From Acidimicrobiia bacterium (GTDB taxonomy: Bacteria > Actinomycetota > Acidimicrobiia > Spongiisociales > ZC4RG35): a stretch of 56,973 nucleotides of DNA. Below the pieces are notes generated by a model. The model worked only from the letters and a program-made list of their open reading frames with translations, had not been told where the DNA came from and made no database searches. The DNA is taken from positions 1 to 56,973 of the forward strand of contig WFOA01000086.1 of assembly GCA_015488325.1 (NCBI GenBank), in the 5' to 3' direction. Below, one piece after another: positions 27,206 to 40,014 of the stretch (position 1 is the first letter of the stretch; each line of letters starts with the position of its first letter). Both the position numbers and the translations under genes were made by a program.

Positions 27206-27249
27206 AGTCCACACCGATGTCTTCGCCGCCGTGGGATCATCGGGGCGGA

Positions 27250-28368
27250 ATGCTGTATCTGGACCACGCGGCGACGACACCGATGCGGCCCGGGGTGTGG
27301 GAGGCGATGGCCCCCTACGCCGCCGACGCCTTCGGGAACCCGTCGGGAAGCCACGGGGTGTCTCGGCGCGCCAAGAACGCTCTCGAGGAGGCCCGGGAAC
27401 GGGTCGCCGCCCATCTCGGGTGCGCCCCGGCAGAGGTCGTCTTCTGCGGCGGCGGGACCGAAGCCGACAACCTGGCGGTGAAAGGGCCCGCTGTCGCCGC
27501 CGGCCGCGGTGGGGTGGTGACCGTCGCCACCGAACACGAAGCGGTGCTGGAATCCGCCCGGTTCCTCCGCCGTCTCGGCCATCCGGTCACCATCGTCGGG
27601 GTGGACCGGTTCGGACGGGTCGACCCCGACGAGGTGGCCGCCGCCGTCGGTCCGGACACGGCGGTGGTGTCGGTGATGGCCGCCAACAACGAGACCGGCA
27701 CGCTCCAGCCGGTCGCCGAGGTGGCGGCGGCGGTCAAGGCCGCCAACCCGAAGACGGTGGTGCACACCGACGCCGTTCAGGCCTTCATGGCGGGCGTCGA
27801 CGTCGACGAACTCGGTGTGGACCTCCTCACCCTCGCCGCCCACAAGTTCGGCGGCCCCAAGGGAGTGGGCGTCCTCTACGTCCGACGGGGGGTGCAGATC
27901 GAGCCGGTGCTGCACGGCGGCGGACAGGAGATGGGACGGCGTTCGGGGACGGTGAACGTCGCCGGGGCGGTGGGGATGGCCGCCGCCATGGACGCGGCCG
28001 CCGCCGACCGGGAACGGTTCGCCGCCGACGTCGCCGAGGCCCGCCGCCGGTTCGAGGTGGCGCTGGTCGGAAAGGCCGAACGGACCGTCCCCGTCGACCA
28101 CACCCTCGTCCAGCATTCCCATCTTCGTTTCACCGGTGTCCGCAACGACACCCTGCTGATCCGCCTCGACCGCCGCGGTGTGGCCGCCGCCGCCGGTTCG
28201 GCCTGCCAGTCGGGGGCGACCACCCCCAGCCACGTCCTCGTCGCCATGGGGTACGGCCCCGACGAGGCCCGGGAATGTGTGCGTTTCACCTTCGGGTGGA
28301 CCACCCGTCCCGAAGACGGCGACGTCGCCGCCGGGATCGTCCTCGACGCCTTGGAGGCCAACCGATGA
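27250..28368 (+). CDS. Cysteine desulfurase (NifS/IscS-type, class V aminotransferase fold)
   Basis: 372 residues from ATG 27250; an in-frame ATG at 27217 is the alternative. MLYLDHAATTPMRPGVWEAM is the standard N-terminus. The PLP lysine is in LAAHKFGGPKGVG (near residue 199). The persulfide-carrying Cys is in AGSACQSGATTPSHV (near 319). It moves sulfur from L-cysteine to acceptor proteins. The stop overlaps the mnmA start (ATGA), so the main job is probably sulfur supply for tRNA 2-thiouridine. No IscU or SUF genes are nearby. Confidence 0.95.
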   Translation: MLYLDHAATTPMRPGVWEAMAPYAADAFGNPSGSHGVSRRAKNALEEARERVAAHLGCAPAEVVFCGGGTEADNLAVKGPAVAAGRGGVVTVATEHEAVLESARFLRRLGHPVTIVGVDRFGRVDPDEVAAAVGPDTAVVSVMAANNETGTLQPVAEVAAAVKAANPKTVVHTDAVQAFMAGVDVDELGVDLLTLAAHKFGGPKGVGVLYVRRGVQIEPVLHGGGQEMGRRSGTVNVAGAVGMAAAMDAAAADRERFAADVAEARRRFEVALVGKAERTVPVDHTLVQHSHLRFTGVRNDTLLIRLDRRGVAAAAGSACQSGATTPSHVLVAMGYGPDEARECVRFTFGWTTRPEDGDVAAGIVLDALEANR

Positions 28369-29414
28369 GGGTGCTGGCCGCCATGTCGGGCGGGGTCGAC
28401 TCGTCGGTCGCCGCCGCCTCGATGCTCGAGGAGGGCCATGACGTGGTGGGGGTGACGTTGAAGCTGTGGTCGGGTCCCAACGGGGAGGCGCCGACGGCGG
28501 GATGCTGCACCGTCTCCGACGCCGAGGACGCCCGCCGGGTCGCCGCCCAGCTCGACATCCCCTACTACGTCCTCGACTACTCGGACGTGTTCATGGATGG
28601 GGTGGTGGAACGGTTCGTCGCCGACTACGCCTCGGGCCGGACCCCCAACCCCTGCATCGAATGCAACCGGACCGTCAAGTTCTCCCGGCTCCTCGACCAC
28701 GCCGCCGAACTGGAATGCGACCTGGTGGTCACCGGCCACTACGCCCGCACCCGCCTGGAGGGGGGACGGTGGAGGCTGCTTCGGGGCGTCGACGCCGCCA
28801 AAGACCAGTCCTACGTCCTGTCGATGCTCGACCAGGACACCCTGGCCCGGGTGCGGTTCCCGGTGGGGGAGTTCACCAAGGACGAGACCCGGCGGCGGGC
28901 CGCAGAGCTGGGTCTGCGTACGGCGTCGAAGCCGGAGAGCCAGGACATCTGTTTCGTCGGCAACGGCGACTACCGGGACTTCCTCCGCCGGGTCGCCCCC
29001 GAGACGGAACGGCCCGGACCGATCGTGGATGTCGACGGGCGGAAGGTCGGGGCGCACCGGGGGGTCGCCACCGTCACGATCGGTCAGCGGCGCGGCCTCG
29101 GGGTGGCGGTGGGCGAACCCCGCTACGTCGTCGAGGTCCGGCCCGACACCGCCACCGTGGTGGTGGGCCGCCGGGAGGATCTCGCGGTCCGGGAACTCGT
29201 GGTGGAGGAGATCTCCTGGGTGGCGGGGGAACCTCCCGCCGACCGGGACGTGGAGGTCCAGTACCGGGCCCACGGGGAGACCGTCGCCGGTGTGGTTTCC
29301 GGGTCGGTGGTCACCCTCGCCGAACCGGCCTTCGGGGTGGCGCCCGGCCAGACCGCCACCTTCTACCGGGGCGACGAAGTCCTCGGCGGCGGGATCGTGG
29401 TCGCGACCCGATGA
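28365..29414 (+). CDS. mnmA: tRNA-specific 2-thiouridylase MnmA
   Basis: 349 residues. The PP-loop SGGVDSSVAA (residues 8-17) binds ATP. Catalytic cysteines are in TPNPCIECNRTVKF (Cys100, equivalent to E. coli Cys102) and ESQDICFVG. VTGHYAR and the C-terminal TFYRGDEVLGGGIV are typical. It thiolates U34 of Lys, Glu and Gln tRNAs using sulfur from the upstream desulfurase. The 3' end is special: bases 29353-29396 recur exactly at 30957-31000, and an accessory region follows immediately. Confidence 0.97.
   Translation: MRVLAAMSGGVDSSVAAASMLEEGHDVVGVTLKLWSGPNGEAPTAGCCTVSDAEDARRVAAQLDIPYYVLDYSDVFMDGVVERFVADYASGRTPNPCIECNRTVKFSRLLDHAAELECDLVVTGHYARTRLEGGRWRLLRGVDAAKDQSYVLSMLDQDTLARVRFPVGEFTKDETRRRAAELGLRTASKPESQDICFVGNGDYRDFLRRVAPETERPGPIVDVDGRKVGAHRGVATVTIGQRRGLGVAVGEPRYVVEVRPDTATVVVGRREDLAVRELVVEEISWVAGEPPADRDVEVQYRAHGETVAGVVSGSVVTLAEPAFGVAPGQTATFYRGDEVLGGGIVVATR
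29353..29396. repeat. 44-base direct repeat, copy 1 (inside mnmA 3' end)
   Basis: This 44-base segment encodes TATFYRGDEVLGGGI near the MnmA C-terminus. It is identical to 30957-31000. Sequence on both sides is still homologous for about 15 bases but differs mostly at synonymous positions. Confidence 0.9.
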
Positions 29415-29433
29415 GCGGTGCCGCTGCCGGGCC

Positions 29434-30015
29434 TTAGGGCTCGACGCCGTTGATCCGATCGACGCAGGCGTCGAAGGCGATCTTGGCGTCGAGGCCAGGC
29501 GTCTGATCGACTGTCTCGACGATCTCCTTCGCTGCGGCGTCGGCCGGTACGTCGATCCCTGCCTCGCGCAGGCACGCAACGAGCTCGGCGTTCCTCGCTT
29601 CAGGGTCGGCGTCTCTCACGGTGAGCCCGAATCCGGCGGCGATCTGGTCGAGGAACCGAGATCGGCACTCGTTCAGCAGGGCCTCATCGGAGATACCCGC
29701 TCCGGCGTCGACGGAGAAGGTGAACGAGTAGTAGGCCCGCGTGTCCGAGACTTTGATGTCCTCCACCGTGGCGCCTCCCTGTTCCAGGCATTCCGCGGTC
29801 CTGGCGACCGCCTGGTGGAACTCCTCGACGGTCACAACGCCGTCGGCGAACGCGGCCTGTTGTTCAGGCGTGGCCCGGGCAGCGAGATCTTCGACCGAGG
29901 GTCCGCCAAGGGACAGTGCGATCCCGCCCCCTACCAGGGCGAGGATTCCTGCCGCGACGACGATGAGGAGTGCGCGACTCGGGCGACGGTTCGTCTGTGA
30001 ATCTTCCTGGTGCAT
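29434..30015 (-). CDS. Membrane-anchored or secreted protein of unknown function (module 1)
   Basis: 193 residues from ATG 30015 (a GTG at 30018 is equally placed behind GAGGGGG). One hydrophobic segment, ALLIVVAAGILALVGGGIAL (residues ~15-34), directs the rest outside. The outer part is acidic and mostly helical, with four Cys (AECLEQ, NECRSR, ACLREAG, DACVDR), which could form two disulfides. I recognise no family; the periodic Cys pattern resembles small actinobacterial stress or inhibitor-like proteins. It lies 14 bases downstream of the secreted protein gene and shares its promoter. Confidence 0.75.
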   Translation of the reverse strand: MHQEDSQTNRRPSRALLIVVAAGILALVGGGIALSLGGPSVEDLAARATPEQQAAFADGVVTVEEFHQAVARTAECLEQGGATVEDIKVSDTRAYYSFTFSVDAGAGISDEALLNECRSRFLDQIAAGFGLTVRDADPEARNAELVACLREAGIDVPADAAAKEIVETVDQTPGLDAKIAFDACVDRINGVEP

Positions 30016-30029
30016 CACGGTTCACCCCC

Positions 30030-30464
30030 TCATGCGTCCGTGCAGTAGCAGAACAGTCTGAAGCCTCGTCTCGTGCCGAGGTTGCTGGTCGCGTTGTGGT
30101 CGCTGTAGTCGAGTCGGTCGTAGTAGATGGTGGCTCCTGTGTTGATGTTGAGCCAGAAACCGCCCCGCCATGAGCTGTCGGAGTCGACCTCGGTGTAGAT
30201 CTTCAGACCGCGGAGCCAGCGCAGCCGGCCGTCCACCCCGGAACAGAACGTGTATCCGGTGGTCACCGCCCAGCCGTATTTCTCACCATTCGTGTCGTAC
30301 GCCGAGCTGAGCCATCCTTCGTAATCGCAGTAGTCCACCCGGCTGGAGCCGTAGGCACGCTGGCGACCCAAGGCAGGCAAAGCAGCGGCGAGCATCAAGC
30401 TGACGACCAGGGCGACGACGATCACCACCCGCCGACGGATCTCCGACCTGTTGTCCGTCGTCAT
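30030..30464 (-). CDS. Small secreted cysteine-containing protein (module 1)
   Basis: 144 residues from ATG 30464, with GGGGAGG six bases upstream. An RRR-headed signal peptide (VVIVVALVVSLMLAAALPALG) is followed by a mature part of ~110 residues rich in Tyr, Trp, Ser and Gly. It has four Cys: DYCDYEG, YTFCSGVDG and a C-terminal FCYCTDA. The family is unknown. The promoter, 5' leader, ribosome site and first codons (ATGACGAC) closely match those of the secreted protein gene ending at 35862, though the mature parts differ. Confidence 0.78.
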   Translation of the reverse strand: MTTDNRSEIRRRVVIVVALVVSLMLAAALPALGRQRAYGSSRVDYCDYEGWLSSAYDTNGEKYGWAVTTGYTFCSGVDGRLRWLRGLKIYTEVDSDSSWRGGFWLNINTGATIYYDRLDYSDHNATSNLGTRRGFRLFCYCTDA

Positions 30465-30510
30465 GACGGACCTCCCCATCTGCGCGTGCCCCCAGCCCGC
30501 GCCAGGGGCG

Positions 30511-30539
30511 AATATACCGCGACCCGAGGGGGGTGTCCT
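30511..30539 (-). promoter_or_regulatory. Predicted promoter of module 1 operon
   Basis: On the minus strand AGGACA (30539-30534) and TATATT (30516-30511) are separated by 17 bases that include a run of six C. The -10 ends 46 bases before the ATG at 30464. The leader that follows is shared with the promoter at 36341-36313. Confidence 0.6.
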
Positions 30540-30649
30540 GTGTTGTTGTCAAGGGGTGTTGGGGTGGTTGGTGGTGGAGAGGGCGTTGGTTCTGAGCATG
30601 GTGAAGATGATGTCGTCCGTCGCCCCTGATGGTCGCGCAGTGCCCTCAT
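30540..30649 (-). other. Remnant coding start behind a duplicated regulatory element
   Basis: On the minus strand, GGAGGTGACCGAC precedes an ATG at 30649. The first ~35 bases resemble the start of the metalloprotease gene at 32581 (same ribosome site, ATGAGGGC versus TTGAGGGC, then CCATCAG). The similarity then ends, and the frame gives Pro/Thr-rich nonsense-like sequence. A second frame ends in MLRTNALSTTNHPNTP and a TGA, which could be the tail of a lost gene. I take it as debris, not a functional gene. Confidence 0.45.
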
Positions 30650-30922
30650 GTCGGTCACCTCCTTGTGCCGGGAGCTCAGCTCAACCTACGCTCGACCTCG
30701 GGTGTTCGTCTAGACCAAAACCGGGATTTGGCAGTGCCTCTGCCAGATTTGGCAGTGTCCGTACCACTCTGCGGACCCACCATCCGACCCCGATCTCTAT
30801 GGCGACATCTTTTGTGCGTGTTTCCGGTCCGCAGGCGTAGCGAACCTATCGCCGCCGGGCGGATGTCAACCCTTTGTGGTCACCGTCTGCCCGAGTTCGC
30901 GTATGCACTGCCCGGATGCTTC
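30623..30922. repeat. ~300-base direct repeat, copy A (regulatory element)
   Basis: It matches 32553-32852 at roughly 88% by eye. It contains a ribosome site and start codon for a minus-strand gene, two exact copies of GATTTGGCAGTG (30725-30736 and 30746-30757, 21 bases apart), and the upstream region of popT up to its first codons (ATGCTTCG at 30916). Most of the 553-base gap between 30480 and 31032 is this repeat. Confidence 0.88.
30725..30757. promoter_or_regulatory. Phased direct repeats, copy A
   Basis: GATTTGGCAGTG occurs twice with start points 21 bases apart, two helical turns. TGGCAG and CTGCCA between them add a 6-bp inverted repeat. The arrangement suggests an activator or repressor site. 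It is conserved in copy B. Confidence 0.5.
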
Positions 30923-30941
30923 GTGTCAGAGGCCCTCTCGG

Positions 30942-31018
30942 TGGCACCTGGACCGTCCGCCACCTTCTACCGGGGCGACGAAGTCCTCGGCGGCGGGATC
31001 ATTACCGCGACGAGGTGA
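30942..31018 (+). pseudogene. Duplicated 3' end of mnmA, fused behind a popT-like start
   Basis: The frame encodes VAPGPSATFYRGDEVLGGGI followed by ITATR and a stop, against VAPGQTATFYRGDEVLGGGI and VVATR in real MnmA. Bases 30957-31000 are identical to 29353-29396; the rest differs mainly at synonymous positions. Directly before it (30866-30924) lies a copy of the popT upstream region with the start codons ATGCTTCG. The order popT start, then mnmA end, is the reverse of the chromosome order. That is what the junction of a tandem duplication or of a circle would look like. Confidence 0.85.
30957..31000. repeat. 44-base direct repeat, copy 2
   Basis: This copy is identical to 29353-29396 in mnmA; the two copies lie 1604 bases apart and bracket module 1. 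Confidence 0.9.
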
Positions 31019-31032
31019 CGGCACCGGGGACG

Positions 31033-31809
31033 TCAGGGGCCGTTGCGGACGAGGACGACCATCTCGTTCAGGTCCGCGGCGACGGCGCTCTGGGCGTCCC
31101 GGAGGGGTGCCTGCGGCTTCCAGCCGTCGGGAGAACGCTCCCACACGTCGGCGGGATGACCGAGCCGCCATGCCCGTTTCGAACCCGCCCCCGTGTAGGA
31201 GGGGAGGTCACGTTCGGCGAGGAACACGACGTAGGTGTCACCTTCGACGAGTACGACACTCGGTGCCTGGCCCCAGGTGATGTCGACCGGTCCGGTGACG
31301 GGCACTTCGGGTTGGGGGCGGTCCAGGTCTTCGGCTTCGTCCACCGTCGAGATTCCGAGGAGTCGGGCCTGGGTCTCGTCCAGGGTGGCCGCGATGGCTC
31401 CACCTGCGACGTAGATCACCATCTCGTCGTCGGTGGGGAAGGTGACTCGGGGTGCGACAGACAGCACCTCGAGGACACGGACCTCGACCGGTGTCGTGAC
31501 GGTGAGACCTGCCAGGGGGTGCCCTTTCTCCGCTTTTGCCGTGAGCTGGGCGGCGTCGGGGAATCCTCCGTCGGCGGTGTTGGTGATCGAGGGTTTGACG
31601 TCGATCACTTCGACTTCGGCGATCACCTCGGCGCGCTCTGCCAGGTCGGTGGGGGAGAGCGGGGGGTAGCTGGCGCCTCCGGCGACGGCGAGGTCGGCGG
31701 TGGAGGTCGGGTCGGGGACGCTCGGGGAGGGCGCCTCCGAACAGGCGGCGAGGGCGACGAGGAGGGCGGCACCGAGAATGATCTTGGTACGGACTCGAGA
31801 TTCATGCAT
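31033..31809 (-). CDS. Lipoprotein of unknown function (module 2)
   Basis: 258 residues from ATG 31809, with GGGGAGGG upstream. The signal peptide ends in a lipobox, LVALAACSEA. The mature part starts with a Pro/Ser/Thr-rich linker. It continues with PPLSPTDLAERAEVIAEVEV and a beta-rich region (VEVRVLEVLSV, GDTYVVFLAERD), reminiscent of small actinobacterial exported proteins that shield or inhibit enzymes. I recognise no family. Its start overlaps the metalloprotease stop by eight bases, so the two are co-expressed and may act together at the surface. Confidence 0.78.
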   Translation of the reverse strand: MHESRVRTKIILGAALLVALAACSEAPSPSVPDPTSTADLAVAGGASYPPLSPTDLAERAEVIAEVEVIDVKPSITNTADGGFPDAAQLTAKAEKGHPLAGLTVTTPVEVRVLEVLSVAPRVTFPTDDEMVIYVAGGAIAATLDETQARLLGISTVDEAEDLDRPQPEVPVTGPVDITWGQAPSVVLVEGDTYVVFLAERDLPSYTGAGSKRAWRLGHPADVWERSPDGWKPQAPLRDAQSAVAADLNEMVVLVRNGP

Positions 31810-32581
31810 GGACGCACCCTCCCCACCAACCGTGTGCATGGCCGTACACCATGCACCTGCCGACCCGGTCCTCGTAGGCGAGGGTGACGCCGCCCGCCGG
31901 AGCTCCGGGATTCATCGTCGTATACGACTCTACGGAATGACCGAGCCCGAGGTAGTGGCCGAACTCATGGGCGGCGAGGTCGTCGAGTCGACTGGCCGGT
32001 ACATCGTCGGTGAATTCGATGAGGGCGGAGCCTTCGCTGATATGGGAACCCGAGAAGGTATATCCCGTGCACCCGTCGGCAGCCGGGTCACCGCAGATGA
32101 TCGTCGATGCTGGGACGACTCTTACGTTGGCGTTTGTTGATGTGTCGCTCAGCTGACGAATGAAGTCGAACTGATGCCCATTGGTCCGGTCCCAGGCCGA
32201 GTATCCCAAGGTGATACCAGACGTGAATCCGTTCTGCCACACTGAATCTTCAAAGAAAAAGCGCGCATTGGCGTAGGAGTGGTGCTTGAAACAATGGCCC
32301 ACGCTCGGCGACTCCCCGTGGGCGCAGGTGAATGAGTACGGGCCCCAACCGTCACCGCCAACCGAGGGGTCGTGAGCCATGGCGATCGATGGAGATACCG
32401 TCGAGAGGGCGACGATCAGGGTCAGGACCAGCAATGGGCGGTCCCTGCCCTGCAGCCTCCGCCGGGACCGAAGGACCGTTGTGGCCCCTTGTTCCAAAGC
32501 GGTGTCAGGTGGCTTCCTCCCTTGAGCGTCAAGACGGGAGCTAGCGTCCATTGCCCTCTGATGGCCGCATAGAGCCCTCAA
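31802..32581 (-). CDS. Secreted matrixin-like zinc metalloprotease (module 2)
   Basis: 259 residues if the TTG at 32581 is the start, chosen because GGAGGT lies seven bases upstream and is conserved in the duplicate element; ATG 32551 is possible. A signal sequence (PLLVLTLIVALSTVSPSIAMA) ends near residue 69. The zinc motif AAHEFGHYLGLGH (HExxHxxGxxH) and a Met-turn-like TTMNPGAPAG identify a metzincin of the M10/M12 type. Two Cys pairs are visible. The middle (about 32140-32300) is clearly less GC-rich than the window and contains rare A-runs, a sign of transfer. Confidence 0.85.
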   Translation of the reverse strand: MRALCGHQRAMDASSRLDAQGRKPPDTALEQGATTVLRSRRRLQGRDRPLLVLTLIVALSTVSPSIAMAHDPSVGGDGWGPYSFTCAHGESPSVGHCFKHHSYANARFFFEDSVWQNGFTSGITLGYSAWDRTNGHQFDFIRQLSDTSTNANVRVVPASTIICGDPAADGCTGYTFSGSHISEGSALIEFTDDVPASRLDDLAAHEFGHYLGLGHSVESYTTMNPGAPAGGVTLAYEDRVGRCMVYGHAHGWWGGCVHA

Positions 32582-32852
32582 CTCGGTCACCTCCTCGTAC
32601 CGGGAGCTCAGCTCAACCTACGCTCAACCTCGGGTGTTCGTCTAGACCAAGACCGGGATTTGGCAGTGCCTCTGCCAGATTTGGCAGTGTCCGTACCACT
32701 CTGCGGACCCACCATCCGACCCCGATCTCCATGGCGATATCTCTGTTCGTGTTTCCAGTCCGCAGGTATGGCGAACCTATCGCTGCCGGGCGGATGTCAA
32801 CCGTTCGTAGCCGTCGTGGGCCCGGTTCGCGCATGCCCTGCCCGGATGCTTC
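32553..32852. repeat. ~300-base direct repeat, copy B (regulatory element)
   Basis: This is the counterpart of 30623-30922. In this copy the element lies in front of an intact minus-strand gene (the metalloprotease), and its far end is a copy of the popT upstream region and start. It fills nearly all of the 304-base gap between 32582 and 32885. Confidence 0.88.
32657..32689. promoter_or_regulatory. Phased direct repeats, copy B
   Basis: GATTTGGCAGTG is found at 32657-32668 and 32678-32689, again 21 bases apart. The pair lies about 75-110 bases upstream of the metalloprotease start, where an upstream regulator site would be expected. Confidence 0.5.
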
Positions 32853-32928
32853 CCGAAACCCCACGGACCGTCGAGCGCGGCTTCCTCATCGGTGCCGACG
32901 TCGGTGTGCTCGGCGTGGCGGGGGGACA
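32846..32928 (+). pseudogene. Degenerate copy of the popT 5' end
   Basis: The ATG at 32846 opens MLPETPRTVERGFLIGAD and continues VGVLGVAGG. The real popT product begins MLREVLWTVVRGFLMGAADV and continues VPGVSGG. Nucleotide similarity is roughly 75% by eye, with a three-base gap. After GGGGGGAC (ending near 32928) the sequence is the 3' end of the minus-strand permease gene. The -10 box TACACT of real popT is TGCCCT here, so the copy is probably silent. Confidence 0.85.
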
Positions 32929-33566
32929 AGAGGGCCCCTGCCCGAGCCGATCACCAGCGAGCCGACGAGACACACGCCGATCCAGGATCCCAGGAACTTC
33001 CCTGCAGCTTCCCACCGCGTCGACCCAGGGGCCTGAAAGGGGGTCCACTCGGGCGGCGCTGCCGCCGCGACCACGAACAGGAGCGCCACGATGGCGGCCA
33101 TGACCATGCGGAGGTCCTCTTCCCACCATCGGGCGCTGAACGCCGCTCCCAGAGCGCCTGCAGCAGCGAGGGCCCCGGCTTCCAGCAGGAGGCGGCCCAC
33201 CGGGAAGGCGGCAGGATCGGTGCCGGCGACGAACGTCCAGGGGGTGTTCCTCGACGCGAGGAGGAGGGCGGCCACCACCGCCGCCAGCCATGCCACCCCG
33301 ACCGTGGCGAGGCGAACCAGGTTTCGGATGAGGGGGCTGGTGGGCAGTGCCGCGGTGAGTTCACCCGCTCGGTCGTCCAACACGTAGGGAAGGACGACGG
33401 CCGGGAAGGCGACCGACAGCCGGGTGAGGAGCGCACGGTCGATGAACGACGGTGCCTGGCCGCCTGCCAACCCCGCCGCGACGAGGAGCGGCACGGCGGA
33501 TGCCACGAGGGGCACCCATCCGACCGTCTGGAGCTCCACCCGGAGCGTCAGCCAGCCCCGTCTCAC
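32886..33566 (-). CDS. ABC-2 type transporter permease subunit 2 (module 3)
   Basis: 226 residues from GTG 33566, which overlaps the upstream permease stop (GTGA); an in-frame ATG at 33632 would overlap far more. About six hydrophobic segments (residues ~12-35, 55-72, 90-110, 125-150, 160-180, 205-222) and a basic tail. It pairs with the larger permease and ATPase. The last ~15 codons lie in the degenerate popT copy, so the natural C-terminus may have been altered when the module was inserted. Confidence 0.75.
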   Translation of the reverse strand: MRRGWLTLRVELQTVGWVPLVASAVPLLVAAGLAGGQAPSFIDRALLTRLSVAFPAVVLPYVLDDRAGELTAALPTSPLIRNLVRLATVGVAWLAAVVAALLLASRNTPWTFVAGTDPAAFPVGRLLLEAGALAAAGALGAAFSARWWEEDLRMVMAAIVALLFVVAAAAPPEWTPFQAPGSTRWEAAGKFLGSWIGVCLVGSLVIGSGRGPLVPPPRRAHRRRHR

Positions 33567-34996
33567 CGGCAGGTACCCGACAGGCCGGTTCCAGCGGTGT
33601 CGGAGGGCGACGGCGCCTCCATGTCGAACCATGCCGCCACGTCGCCGGTCGAAGCGTCGGGATTCCGGAGCTTTCCGGCATGGAGCCTGAACACGTCGGC
33701 GACTTCGTCGGCGTCCCTGGAGGTGAGGGAGGCTGCGAGGCCGATCGATGCCTCGTCGGGCCGCCAGAAGCCGAGGAGCTCACGGACCAGGTTCGGGTCG
33801 CCGACGACGCTGCCCCCGTCGTGGGACGCCACCGAGGCCGCCCACAGCACGAAGACCAGCCGAGCCTGCCCCGCGGCCGAGCACGGTTGTGGGTCGAGTC
33901 CGACGGCGGTTCCGGCGATCGCCGCCGCCAGGGTGAACCGATGTCGGGGTGGCTGTCCCCGCCGATCCCATCTGATCGGCGCGGCGACCACGCCGGTGCG
34001 TCCGGCGTAGGGTCCGGCGAAGACTTCGTTTCCCGGTTGCTGCACGACGGCGGTGAGGTCGATCGGAGCCACAGCGGCGACGGCCCGGACCGTGTCTGCC
34101 CAGTCGTCCACCCAGGGACGGTACAGGGGATAGAAGCAGTAGGTGACGTCTTCACGTTCTTCGCAGGGTTGCGCGCGGGTCACCTCCTCCCAGTTCCACA
34201 GCGGTGTGGGTGCGGCGACGAGACGCCTGGCGGTGAGGACCGTGAGGGTGAGCACCACCGCCATGGCCGCCAGCGCCCAGAGGCGCCGTTCGTGTCGGAG
34301 GAGGAACCAGACCGCCGCGCCGACCGTGATGAGGATCAGAAAGGTGGTGTGCAGCGCCGAGGGGCGAAGCAGGGTCTGTTCGGCAGGCTCGAACAGACTC
34401 GGCGGGATCCACGGAGCGAGGGCGGCGAGCCCCAGACGACCTGTTTCCGCCGTGGCACCGATCTCGATGTCGGGTGAGGCGACGAGGGTCCAGTGGGCGA
34501 GCACCGGGAAGGTGAGGACCGACAGCAACGACGAGAAACGGCCGAGGACGAACCCTCCCACCCAGGCGAAGGCGACCATCACCGGACCACCGGCCAGCTC
34601 CCACCACGCCGGTGTACCGACGGCGTCGGGAGCCACGAACACGGCTCCCATCAGGAGGATCGCCACGGCTACGGTGAAGGGGCCGACACCCGCTAGCAGG
34701 AACGCTGCCTCCCGTACTCGCTCGGAGGTGGGGAGAGCCTCGACGATGTCCCGGGTCGCGTTCCTCCGGTCACGGGCGGCCAGCCACGAGGCGGCGAACC
34801 AGGAGGCAGCACCGAGCGGCAGGAGCGCTCCCGCCAGCCACGCCGACGTCTCCGGCCAGACGGGCGCCCAGCGGGACGTCCATCTCCAGACGAGGTACAC
34901 CGATGCAGCCGCCCCGGCGACGATGGAGGGACTGCGCAGCAGTCGCCGGACCTCCACGGCGGCGAGGGCGAACAGCACACGCCGTTCAGGTGTCAT
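33563..34996 (-). CDS. ABC-2 type transporter permease with extracytoplasmic domain (module 3)
   Basis: 477 residues from ATG 34996, overlapping the ATPase stop by 11 bases. Residues ~1-280 contain about seven hydrophobic segments (for example LAGALLPLGAASWFAASWLA). The C-terminal ~190 residues are soluble, with two Cys in RAQPCEEREDVTYCFY. They are predicted to face outside or to cap the channel. A large extra domain on an ABC-2 permease is unusual and may hold or recognise a protein substrate such as the small secreted protein encoded first in this operon. Confidence 0.78.
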   Translation of the reverse strand: MTPERRVLFALAAVEVRRLLRSPSIVAGAAASVYLVWRWTSRWAPVWPETSAWLAGALLPLGAASWFAASWLAARDRRNATRDIVEALPTSERVREAAFLLAGVGPFTVAVAILLMGAVFVAPDAVGTPAWWELAGGPVMVAFAWVGGFVLGRFSSLLSVLTFPVLAHWTLVASPDIEIGATAETGRLGLAALAPWIPPSLFEPAEQTLLRPSALHTTFLILITVGAAVWFLLRHERRLWALAAMAVVLTLTVLTARRLVAAPTPLWNWEEVTRAQPCEEREDVTYCFYPLYRPWVDDWADTVRAVAAVAPIDLTAVVQQPGNEVFAGPYAGRTGVVAAPIRWDRRGQPPRHRFTLAAAIAGTAVGLDPQPCSAAGQARLVFVLWAASVASHDGGSVVGDPNLVRELLGFWRPDEASIGLAASLTSRDADEVADVFRLHAGKLRNPDASTGDVAAWFDMEAPSPSDTAGTGLSGTCR

Positions 34997-35837
34997 TGGT
35001 GTCGGCGTTGGAGACGAGGGCCAGGTATCCGTCTTCGAGGGTCGGTGGTACCGGACTGGCGCCCGGCGGAGGAGATCCGACCGCACGGAAGGTCCCCGCT
35101 CCGGTCTGCCAGAAGGCGATGGCGTCGGCCGGTGGGGTGTCCGACTGCCACACTTTCCCGTCGGCGACCCGAATCAGCGATTCGGGAGTCCCCGAGAACC
35201 TGACTCTGCCGGCGACCAGGACCACGACATGGTCGGCGACGGCAGCCACGTCTTCGACCTGGTGGGTCGAGAGGAGGACCGTCGTGTCGGGCGTCCTCGC
35301 CGCGGTGAGCAGGTGGCGGAACCGGATCCGCTGTTCCGGGTCGAGTCCGACGGTCGGCTCGTCGAGAACGACGAGGTCGGGGCGACCCAGCATGGCCTGG
35401 GCCAGACCCACCCGGCGTCGCATCCCACCTGAGAGCCGGCGGGTCTTTACGTCGGCGACGTCTCCGAGCTCCACGGTTTCGATGACCCTCGTCACCTCTG
35501 TCGCCCGCAGCTCCGGATCGTGGATCTCTTTCAGGATCGCGATGTGGTCGAGGAACCTGCGGACGGTGAAGCCCGGGTAGAGCCCGAAGGTCTGCGGCAT
35601 GTAGCCGAGGCGCCGTCGGATCCGGCGAAGATCGCTGGCCCGGACCGGGGCGACGCCGACGACCTCGATGCGACCGGCGTCGGGACGAAGCACGGTCGCC
35701 ACACACCGCAGCAGCGTCGTCTTCCCCGCACCGTTGGGACCCAACAGTGCGGTCACCCCGGGAGCCGCCGTCAACGACACGCGGTCGAGGGCGAGGCGGC
35801 TCCCGTAGGCCTTGCTGACATCGGTGACTCGGAGCAT
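34986..35837 (-). CDS. ABC transporter ATP-binding protein (module 3)
   Basis: 283 residues, ATG 35837. Walker A is LLGPNGAGKTTLLR, the Q-loop is MPQTFGLYPGFTV, the signature is RRLSGGMRRRVGLAQAML, Walker B is LVVLDEPTVGLDPEQR, and the H-loop is LLSTHQVEDV. The ~60-residue C-terminal extension is typical of ABC-2 ATPases of the drug, bacteriocin-immunity or copper (NosF-like) groups. It lies 24 bases downstream of the secreted protein gene and energises the two permeases that follow. Confidence 0.93.
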   Translation of the reverse strand: MLRVTDVSKAYGSRLALDRVSLTAAPGVTALLGPNGAGKTTLLRCVATVLRPDAGRIEVVGVAPVRASDLRRIRRRLGYMPQTFGLYPGFTVRRFLDHIAILKEIHDPELRATEVTRVIETVELGDVADVKTRRLSGGMRRRVGLAQAMLGRPDLVVLDEPTVGLDPEQRIRFRHLLTAARTPDTTVLLSTHQVEDVAAVADHVVVLVAGRVRFSGTPESLIRVADGKVWQSDTPPADAIAFWQTGAGTFRAVGSPPPGASPVPPTLEDGYLALVSNADTNDT

Positions 35838-35861
35838 TCGCTCGCTATTGGCCGCGGGTGC

Positions 35862-36266
35862 TCAGCAATTGTGCCACCCGCCCGACGAGCTGGGCGCGTA
35901 CTTGGTGCCGCTGCCACCCAACGAATCCTGGTAGTAGCCCTTGCTTCGCCACAGGTCTCTGCCGCGGCCTTCACAGCTCGCGCCGGCAAAGCGCTGATCG
36001 GCCGCCTTGTTGGGCCACGCACTCTCGGTCGCACGCGTCCACCAGTAGAAGCCAACCTTCTCCTGCACCTTCACGTAGTGGTAGGTGACGTTCATGCCGG
36101 TGCATGAGACCGAGCTCAGCCCTTCGATCCAGTTCCCGATTCTGCCCTGTTCGACACCGTGGGAGCAGAACGCCGCCTCTGTACCCGACGGAACGAAGAC
36201 GATGCTGAAGGCGGCGACCACCGCCAGGACCCCCAGCCGGACAGCCGGCCTGTTGGTCGTCGTCAT
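35862..36266 (-). CDS. Small secreted cysteine-containing protein (module 3)
   Basis: 134 residues from ATG 36266, with GGGGAGG upstream. The signal peptide (LGVLAVVAAFSIVFVPSGTEA) releases a mature protein of ~104 residues. It has four Cys (AFCSHG, SVSCTGMNV, GASCEGRG and the final HNC) and many aromatic residues (YHYVKVQEKVGFYWWTRA). The first codons and untranslated leader match the module 1 secreted gene. It leads the ABC transporter operon, so it could be the transported product, a toxin-like effector or a ligand. I recognise no family. Confidence 0.8.
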   Translation of the reverse strand: MTTTNRPAVRLGVLAVVAAFSIVFVPSGTEAAFCSHGVEQGRIGNWIEGLSSVSCTGMNVTYHYVKVQEKVGFYWWTRATESAWPNKAADQRFAGASCEGRGRDLWRSKGYYQDSLGGSGTKYAPSSSGGWHNC

Positions 36267-36312
36267 GACGAACCTCCCCTTCCGTGCGTGCCCCCAGCCC
36301 GCACCTGCGGCG

Positions 36313-36341
36313 AACATACCGTAGGCGGGGGGGGGTGTCAA
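36313..36341 (-). promoter_or_regulatory. Promoter of module 3 with a homopolymeric spacer
   Basis: On the minus strand, TTGACA (36341-36336) and TATGTT (36318-36313) are exactly 17 bases apart. The spacer contains nine consecutive C (G at 36327-36335 on the plus strand). Loss or gain of one base would change the spacing to 16 or 18. The -10 ends 46 bases before the ATG at 36266, the same distance as in module 1. Confidence 0.7.
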
Positions 36342-36374
36342 CCCCCGGTCACCGTCGTCGGCCGGGTTCGCGCA

Positions 36375-36380
36375 TACACT
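36375..36380 (+). promoter_or_regulatory. -10 box of a leaderless promoter (popT)
   Basis: TACACT ends six bases before the popT ATG at 36387. The same position reads TGCACT in the copy at 30.9 kb and TGCCCT in the copy at 32.8 kb. Only this one looks active. Confidence 0.55.
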
Positions 36381-36386
36381 GCCCCG

Positions 36387-37313
36387 ATGCTCCGTGAAGT
36401 TCTGTGGACGGTGGTGCGCGGGTTCCTCATGGGTGCCGCCGACGTCGTCCCCGGCGTGTCGGGGGGGACCATCGCCCTGGTCCTCGGCATCTACGAACGG
36501 CTGGTGGCGGCGATCCGGGCCGGCAGCTCCGCCCTCGGACACCTCCTGAAAGGTGACCTCCCCGGTGTTGGCCGGTGGCTCCGGCGGGTCGAATGGAGTT
36601 TCCTGCTCCCCCTGCTCGCGGGGATCGGCATCGCCGTCGGTGGTCTCGCCCGGGTGATCGAAGCCGGGCTTTCGGACTTCCCCGTCGAGATGGCCGCCCT
36701 CTTCCTCGGACTCGTCGCCGGGTCGATCGTCATCGCCTGGCGGATGCTCGGTCGACGGGACCTCGTCCGGATGGCGATCCTCGTCGTGGTGGCGGTCGTC
36801 GTCTTCGTCCTGTTGGGCCTGCGGGAATCCACCACCCCCGAAGCGGTCGCCCAGGCGGCGACGCCGGCGGTCTGGGCCTTCTTCGGCGCCGGCGCCCTGG
36901 CGATCTGCGCCATGATCCTGCCGGGGATCAGCGGGTCGTTCATCCTCGTCCTGTTGGGGATGTACGCGCCGGTGCTGGCGGCGGTGAACGACCGGGACGT
37001 CGTCGCGGTGGCGGTCTTCGGCTTGGGGGCGGTGGTGGGCCTCGCCCTGTTCTCGCAGCTCCTCCATTGGGCCCTCGCCCACCATCACGACACGGTGATG
37101 GCCGCCCTCATCGGACTCATGGGCGGGTCGCTGCGGGTGCTGTGGCCCTGGCCGGCCGGGCTGGAGACCACCGCCTTGGGCGTGCCGTCCGGACCCGTTC
37201 TCGTCCCCGTCGTGTTGGGGGCGGTCGGAGCGGCGACGGTGGTGGCCGTCCACCTCGTCGCCGAACGGATGAACGGCCGGATCGTCCACACCGCCGCAGA
37301 CGGCACGCCGTAG
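36387..37313 (+). CDS. popT: DUF368 family undecaprenyl phosphate translocase (PopT)
   Basis: 308 residues with about eight transmembrane segments. The two family motifs ADVVPGVSGGTIALVLGIYE (residues ~18-37) and ICAMILPGISGSFILVLLGM (~174-193) form the inverted-repeat re-entrant elements of DUF368. Members of this family (PopT) were recently shown to recycle undecaprenyl phosphate across the membrane for cell-wall synthesis. The gene starts right after the accessory region; its 5' end and upstream sequence exist in two further, degraded copies within that region. Confidence 0.92.
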   Translation: MLREVLWTVVRGFLMGAADVVPGVSGGTIALVLGIYERLVAAIRAGSSALGHLLKGDLPGVGRWLRRVEWSFLLPLLAGIGIAVGGLARVIEAGLSDFPVEMAALFLGLVAGSIVIAWRMLGRRDLVRMAILVVVAVVVFVLLGLRESTTPEAVAQAATPAVWAFFGAGALAICAMILPGISGSFILVLLGMYAPVLAAVNDRDVVAVAVFGLGAVVGLALFSQLLHWALAHHHDTVMAALIGLMGGSLRVLWPWPAGLETTALGVPSGPVLVPVVLGAVGAATVVAVHLVAERMNGRIVHTAADGTP

Positions 37314-37324
37314 CATCGACGACG

Positions 37325-40014
<2,690 letters not shown>

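Follow-up and report, generated by a model that had tools for sequence, protein, structure and literature searches.

The window, the whole stretch of DNA analysed here, is a complete contig (C86) of 56,973 bp from a genome fragmented into 162 contigs; the closest named relatives in the collection of genomes are MAGs of Acidimicrobiia. Housekeeping genes surround the region of interest, among them urocanase, mnmA, popT/DUF368, ligA, gatB, pyruvate kinase and ApbE, together with a cysteine desulfurase identified by eye. The spacer between mnmA and popT, both of which are complete, contains the following features:

28365 to 29414, plus strand: mnmA (tRNA 2-thiouridylase), whole gene at the left edge of the spacer (Pfam PF03054, PF20259 and PF20258)
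29434 to 30018, minus strand: gene A, probably membrane-anchored or secreted, family unassigned (80% amino acid identity to the gene at the same place in the congener G001)
30030 to 30479, minus strand: gene B, small protein with a signal-like N-terminus (same place in G001, 78% amino acid identity)
30511 to 30539, minus strand: predicted promoter of B (promoter scan)
30527 to 30613, minus strand: fragment from the end of an IS110-type insertion sequence, with the C-terminus of the transposase and the element end (72-74% to an element in genome G038)
30614 to 30925, minus strand: copy 1 of the metalloprotease leader and divergent promoter region, with a popT start at its end (89% against 32545-32852)
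30926 to 30930, no strand: join point, about 5 bases fitting neither side (alignments and direct reading)
30931 to 31018, plus strand: truncated mnmA 3' end, 28 codons and stop, with a 44-bp core identical to mnmA
31033 to 31839, minus strand: L, lipoprotein-like secreted protein (paralogue C58:855-1601, 49%)
31802 to 32590, minus strand: M, secreted M10-like metalloprotease (PF00413, 6e-6; paralogue C58:266-883, 71%)
32545 to 32852, minus strand: copy 2 of the leader and divergent promoter region, repeat of copy 1
32849 to 32925, plus strand: another popT start, cut short after about 26 codons (73-75% against popT and G001 popT)
32886 to 35837, minus strand: ABC transporter genes (P2, P1 and ATPase), third cargo block (PF00005 for 34986-35837)
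35862 to 36266, minus strand: B', small secreted protein resembling B in promoter and signal region, with an unrelated body
36387 to 37313, plus strand: popT, whole gene at the right edge of the spacer (DUF368, undecaprenyl phosphate translocase family; PF04018, 3e-72)

Proteins with DUF368 have been put forward as candidates for undecaprenyl phosphate translocases (PMC9876793). Between popT and ligA (37313-37951) lies a gene with a membrane segment and an acetyltransferase-like part, as judged by eye, and this interval is about 480 bp longer in the window than in G001. Among the loci checked, adjacency of mnmA and popT is found only in this genus, apart from a distant Chloroflexi MAG (L136:7450-9824) in which mnmA lies about 450 bp upstream of popT.

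A single congener, G001 (JALSJV010000248), was compared with the window. Its gene order is mnmA, A and B on the minus strand, a divergent promoter of about 100 bp, and popT, and it lacks the junction described below. G001 thus displays the single-copy arrangement of the spacer, but with A and B as cargo rather than L and M. MnmA is 88% and PopT 78% identical between the two genomes at the amino acid level; at four-fold sites, popT diverges by 48% and mnmA by 38%. Replacement of popT by a donor copy was considered on this account and set aside, as 48% is only somewhat above the value for mnmA and is not decisive. The two genomes are collinear at 27227-30537 (84%), at 36250-37267 (77%) and from 37951 onward (82%), position 30537 being the last collinear base to the left. 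This collinearity on both sides indicates that the extra DNA of the window is a discrete insert. It amounts to about 5.8 kb and lies inside the promoter region common to B and popT, which flanks it on both sides (30411-30537 and 36213-36339).

At 30916-31018 the start of popT is followed, after about 5 bases, by the end of mnmA, in direct orientation and in the reverse of the chromosomal order, as the initial annotation had described. The divergent promoter region at 30813-30925 lies upstream of a popT copy and ends in the first codons of that copy (ATG at 30916-30918, about 3 codons kept). The bases at the join itself show no clear homology in the alignments, and the 88-bp mnmA tail that follows is 83% identical to the complete gene (best aligned part 81 bp, 85%, E 1e-20). 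The 44-base core reported earlier was recovered, with 15 differences over the 88 bp and a probability of 6e-5 for such a run. The accompanying statement that the differences are mostly synonymous proved wrong: they fall at codon positions 1, 2 and 3 in the numbers 6, 3 and 6, and 6 of the 11 changed codons alter the amino acid. One of these changes hits the Gln of a GQ pair that is intact in the mnmA of this genome, in that of G001 and in the C-termini of eight other relatives. With so many nonsynonymous changes, the tail looks like a decaying fragment. A fusion protein initiated at the popT ATG was rejected on direct reading, the mnmA tail being out of frame, and the junction itself is most likely without function.

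A feature overlooked in the earlier reading is the recurrence of the leader and popT start at 32545-32925. The segments 30614-30922 and 32545-32852 match over 310 bp (89%, E 6e-112), are spaced 1,931 bp apart and enclose exactly one block of mnmA tail, L and M. The mnmA 3' end is found twice, from 29327 and from 30931, while L and M, in the middle of the unit, are single copy. By these alignment scores, both the mnmA-tail match and the leader and popT-start match are far beyond chance. On the sequence evidence, a partial 1,931-bp tandem repeat has its join point at the junction, and the block of mnmA tail, L, M, leader and popT start is laid out like a whole mnmA-popT spacer that carries other cargo. 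The popT starts are truncated differently in the two copies (about 3 against about 26 codons), which suggests separate illegitimate joins.

L gave no match in a Pfam scan, nor did gene A, which is convergent with mnmA. The true start of M is probably nearer 32490. Outside this genome, relatives of M are weak and confined to G001 (46%, at another locus) and G073; searches with M identified no named relative as the source of L and M, and no genome with an intact mnmA-L-M-popT spacer was found. Treatment of this cargo as a mobile element was abandoned, as M had no match among plasmids and phages and L none among viral contigs. Both leader copies (30644-30798 and 32576-32729) contain a conserved leader in which GGTGTTCGTCTAGACC occurs along with repeated TTTGGCA/TGCCA motifs, and a similar leader is located at L028 (C145:38085-38228) ahead of a different secreted metalloprotease gene. 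A leader common to two different metalloprotease genes is possibly a shared operator or promoter. Rfam found no RNA element in it across 28000-38000, and the idea of a dispersed regulatory repeat was dropped, since only the two window sites, C145 and one weak match were found.

The IS110-type fragment sits at the left edge of the insert, some 300 bp away from the junction. The related element is present in four copies in G038, encodes a similar C-terminus and scores at the Pfam cut-off for Transposase_20; a DNA search found no further copy of the fragment in the genome of the window. At this border the first hexamer of the B promoter is changed, being partly replaced by the fragment, and reads AGGACA as against TTGACA in the B' promoter on the right. 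The promoter and signal regions of B and B' (30411-30537 and 36213-36339) are 77% identical over 127 bp. The mature proteins of B and B' show no relationship, as though a different body had been placed behind a constant start. P1, in the third cargo block, is absent from G001.

The copies diverge by 11% in the leader and by 17% in the mnmA tail, about as much as this genome diverges from G001 in the same region, and the repeat copies are accordingly judged to be old. By the refuting condition set in the initial annotation, a recent simple duplication is excluded, as the tail departs from mnmA beyond the core. Each repeat nevertheless holds one long identical stretch, the 44 bp of the mnmA tail and a 78-bp run in the leader (30720-30797, p 1e-5). 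The simplest account of these patches is gene conversion or crossing-over between the repeats after the array had formed; an integrase site would not be expected in the leader repeat, where one of the patches lies, and gene conversion would explain both. Constraint may also contribute to the 78-bp run, which partly overlaps the leader found at C145 as well.

The best reading is that the spacer gained its roughly 5.8 kb through old recombination that would have stacked alternative versions of the spacer end to end. The ancestral spacer would have consisted of mnmA, divergently transcribed secreted-protein genes, a shared promoter and popT. A second version, running from mnmA tail through L, M and leader to popT start, would then have been added beside the resident copy; an illegitimate join would have attached its mnmA end a short way into a popT start, with homology in the leader and popT region as the other anchor. 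The second version may have arisen by tandem duplication, or a relative's spacer may have been taken up through homology-facilitated illegitimate recombination. Remnants of IS110, additional joins and gene conversion on a local scale would then have shaped the array. We regard an additive or tandem join by recombination that is not site-specific, whether of self or foreign origin, as the probable explanation. In keeping with the initial annotation, an end-to-start junction such as would arise when the mnmA-popT interval is duplicated or inserted additively agrees well with it, given the repeat 1,931 bp downstream.

One form of this explanation dispenses with a foreign donor: the interval from mnmA tail to popT start of a spacer of the L-M type was duplicated in tandem within this lineage, and an IS110-associated deletion in the left copy subsequently removed L together with most of the upstream part, so that leader and popT start came to lie beside the mnmA tail of the second copy. 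In its favour, two leader copies flank exactly one unit, the IS110 fragment sits at the left edge, and the tail is nearer to this genome's own mnmA than to that of G001 (15 against 28 differences of 88). Set against this are the divergence of 11-17%, which would make the event about as old as the species split, and the lack of any trace of duplication in G001; we hold this form to be a serious possibility of somewhat less than even standing, its probability overlapping with that of the broader explanation. The same counts bear on the suggestion that a related strain's mnmA was the source of the tail: the genome's own gene is the closer of the two, but a tail that differs by 17% and carries amino-acid changes suits an old, decaying fragment and a foreign one equally well. 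Integration of a small circle, either the 1.93-kb unit of mnmA tail, L, M, leader and popT start or a 1.6-kb unit of A and B, through one homologous crossover, located either in the leader or in the 44-bp core, would yield the same direct-repeat geometry, as any single-crossover circle insertion does, and could accommodate the long identical patches in both repeats. It is nonetheless improbable, because the proteins scanned and tested include no replicon, recombinase or plasmid or phage relative, the copies are too diverged for a recent event, and formation of the circle would need the same illegitimate join.

An identical core at the 3' end of a gene, within diverged flanks, has the classic look of an attachment site, and a site-specific integration event that used the 44-bp sequence at the mnmA 3' end as its core would account for this identity. 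Pfam scans of the spacer genes and of 19 flanking genes, however, found no recombinase and in particular no integrase gene, the mnmA copy is preceded by a popT start and not by the end of an element, and a similar identical patch occurs in the unrelated leader repeat. Moreover, the two cores flank 1.6 kb that holds A and B, both of which G001 has at the same place without a second core. The initial suggestion of a site-specific crossover core is therefore unsupported, the attachment-site reading was rejected, and integration of this kind is the least probable of the accounts weighed here. An assembly artefact is hardly more credible: the assembly is fragmented and has exact repeats of 44 and 78 bp, but the join point lies outside any repeat, the repeats differ at so many sites that a short-read graph is unlikely to make this join, and both flanks are collinear with G001.

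Homology-facilitated illegitimate recombination is known from natural transformation, for example in Acinetobacter; homology anchors one side, the other is joined with little or none, and the product is an additive insertion with truncated gene ends. The present locus would resemble such products in its additive insertion and truncated gene ends, with the leader and popT region as a putative anchor; no donor molecule was found. A ComEC homologue is encoded, so that DNA uptake is possible; such homologues are common and are no indication of uptake in themselves. In merodiploids of Streptococcus pneumoniae formed by transformation, tandem duplications and one small additive insertion have been documented, and hybrid junctions arising from alternative pairing of repeats have been reported (PMC3784515). 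The end-to-start junction and the direct repeats flanking a unit are like the join points of those merodiploids, whereas the present unit measures only 1.9 kb and has old, diverged copies, and DNA uptake is no more than a possibility. The end fragment at the left insert border is like IS110-family insertion sequences (PMC11208160); unlike an intact element, it retains only about 87 bp and has no other genomic copy in a DNA search, and no active role is claimed for it.

The junction cautions that a long identical core at the end of a gene is by itself no proof of site-specific recombination, since a comparable patch sits here in an unrelated repeat. The mnmA-popT spacer might also be a recurrent acquisition site in the genus, at which new secreted-protein cargo enters just inside popT to form a cassette-like array with no dedicated recombinase; we consider this unlikely, but if true, each entry would bring a fresh divergent promoter and popT start. 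As reconstructed here, the locus would offer a readable case of a spacer between housekeeping genes that gains secreted-protein genes by ordinary recombination, growing without a mobile element of its own while both neighbouring genes are kept intact.
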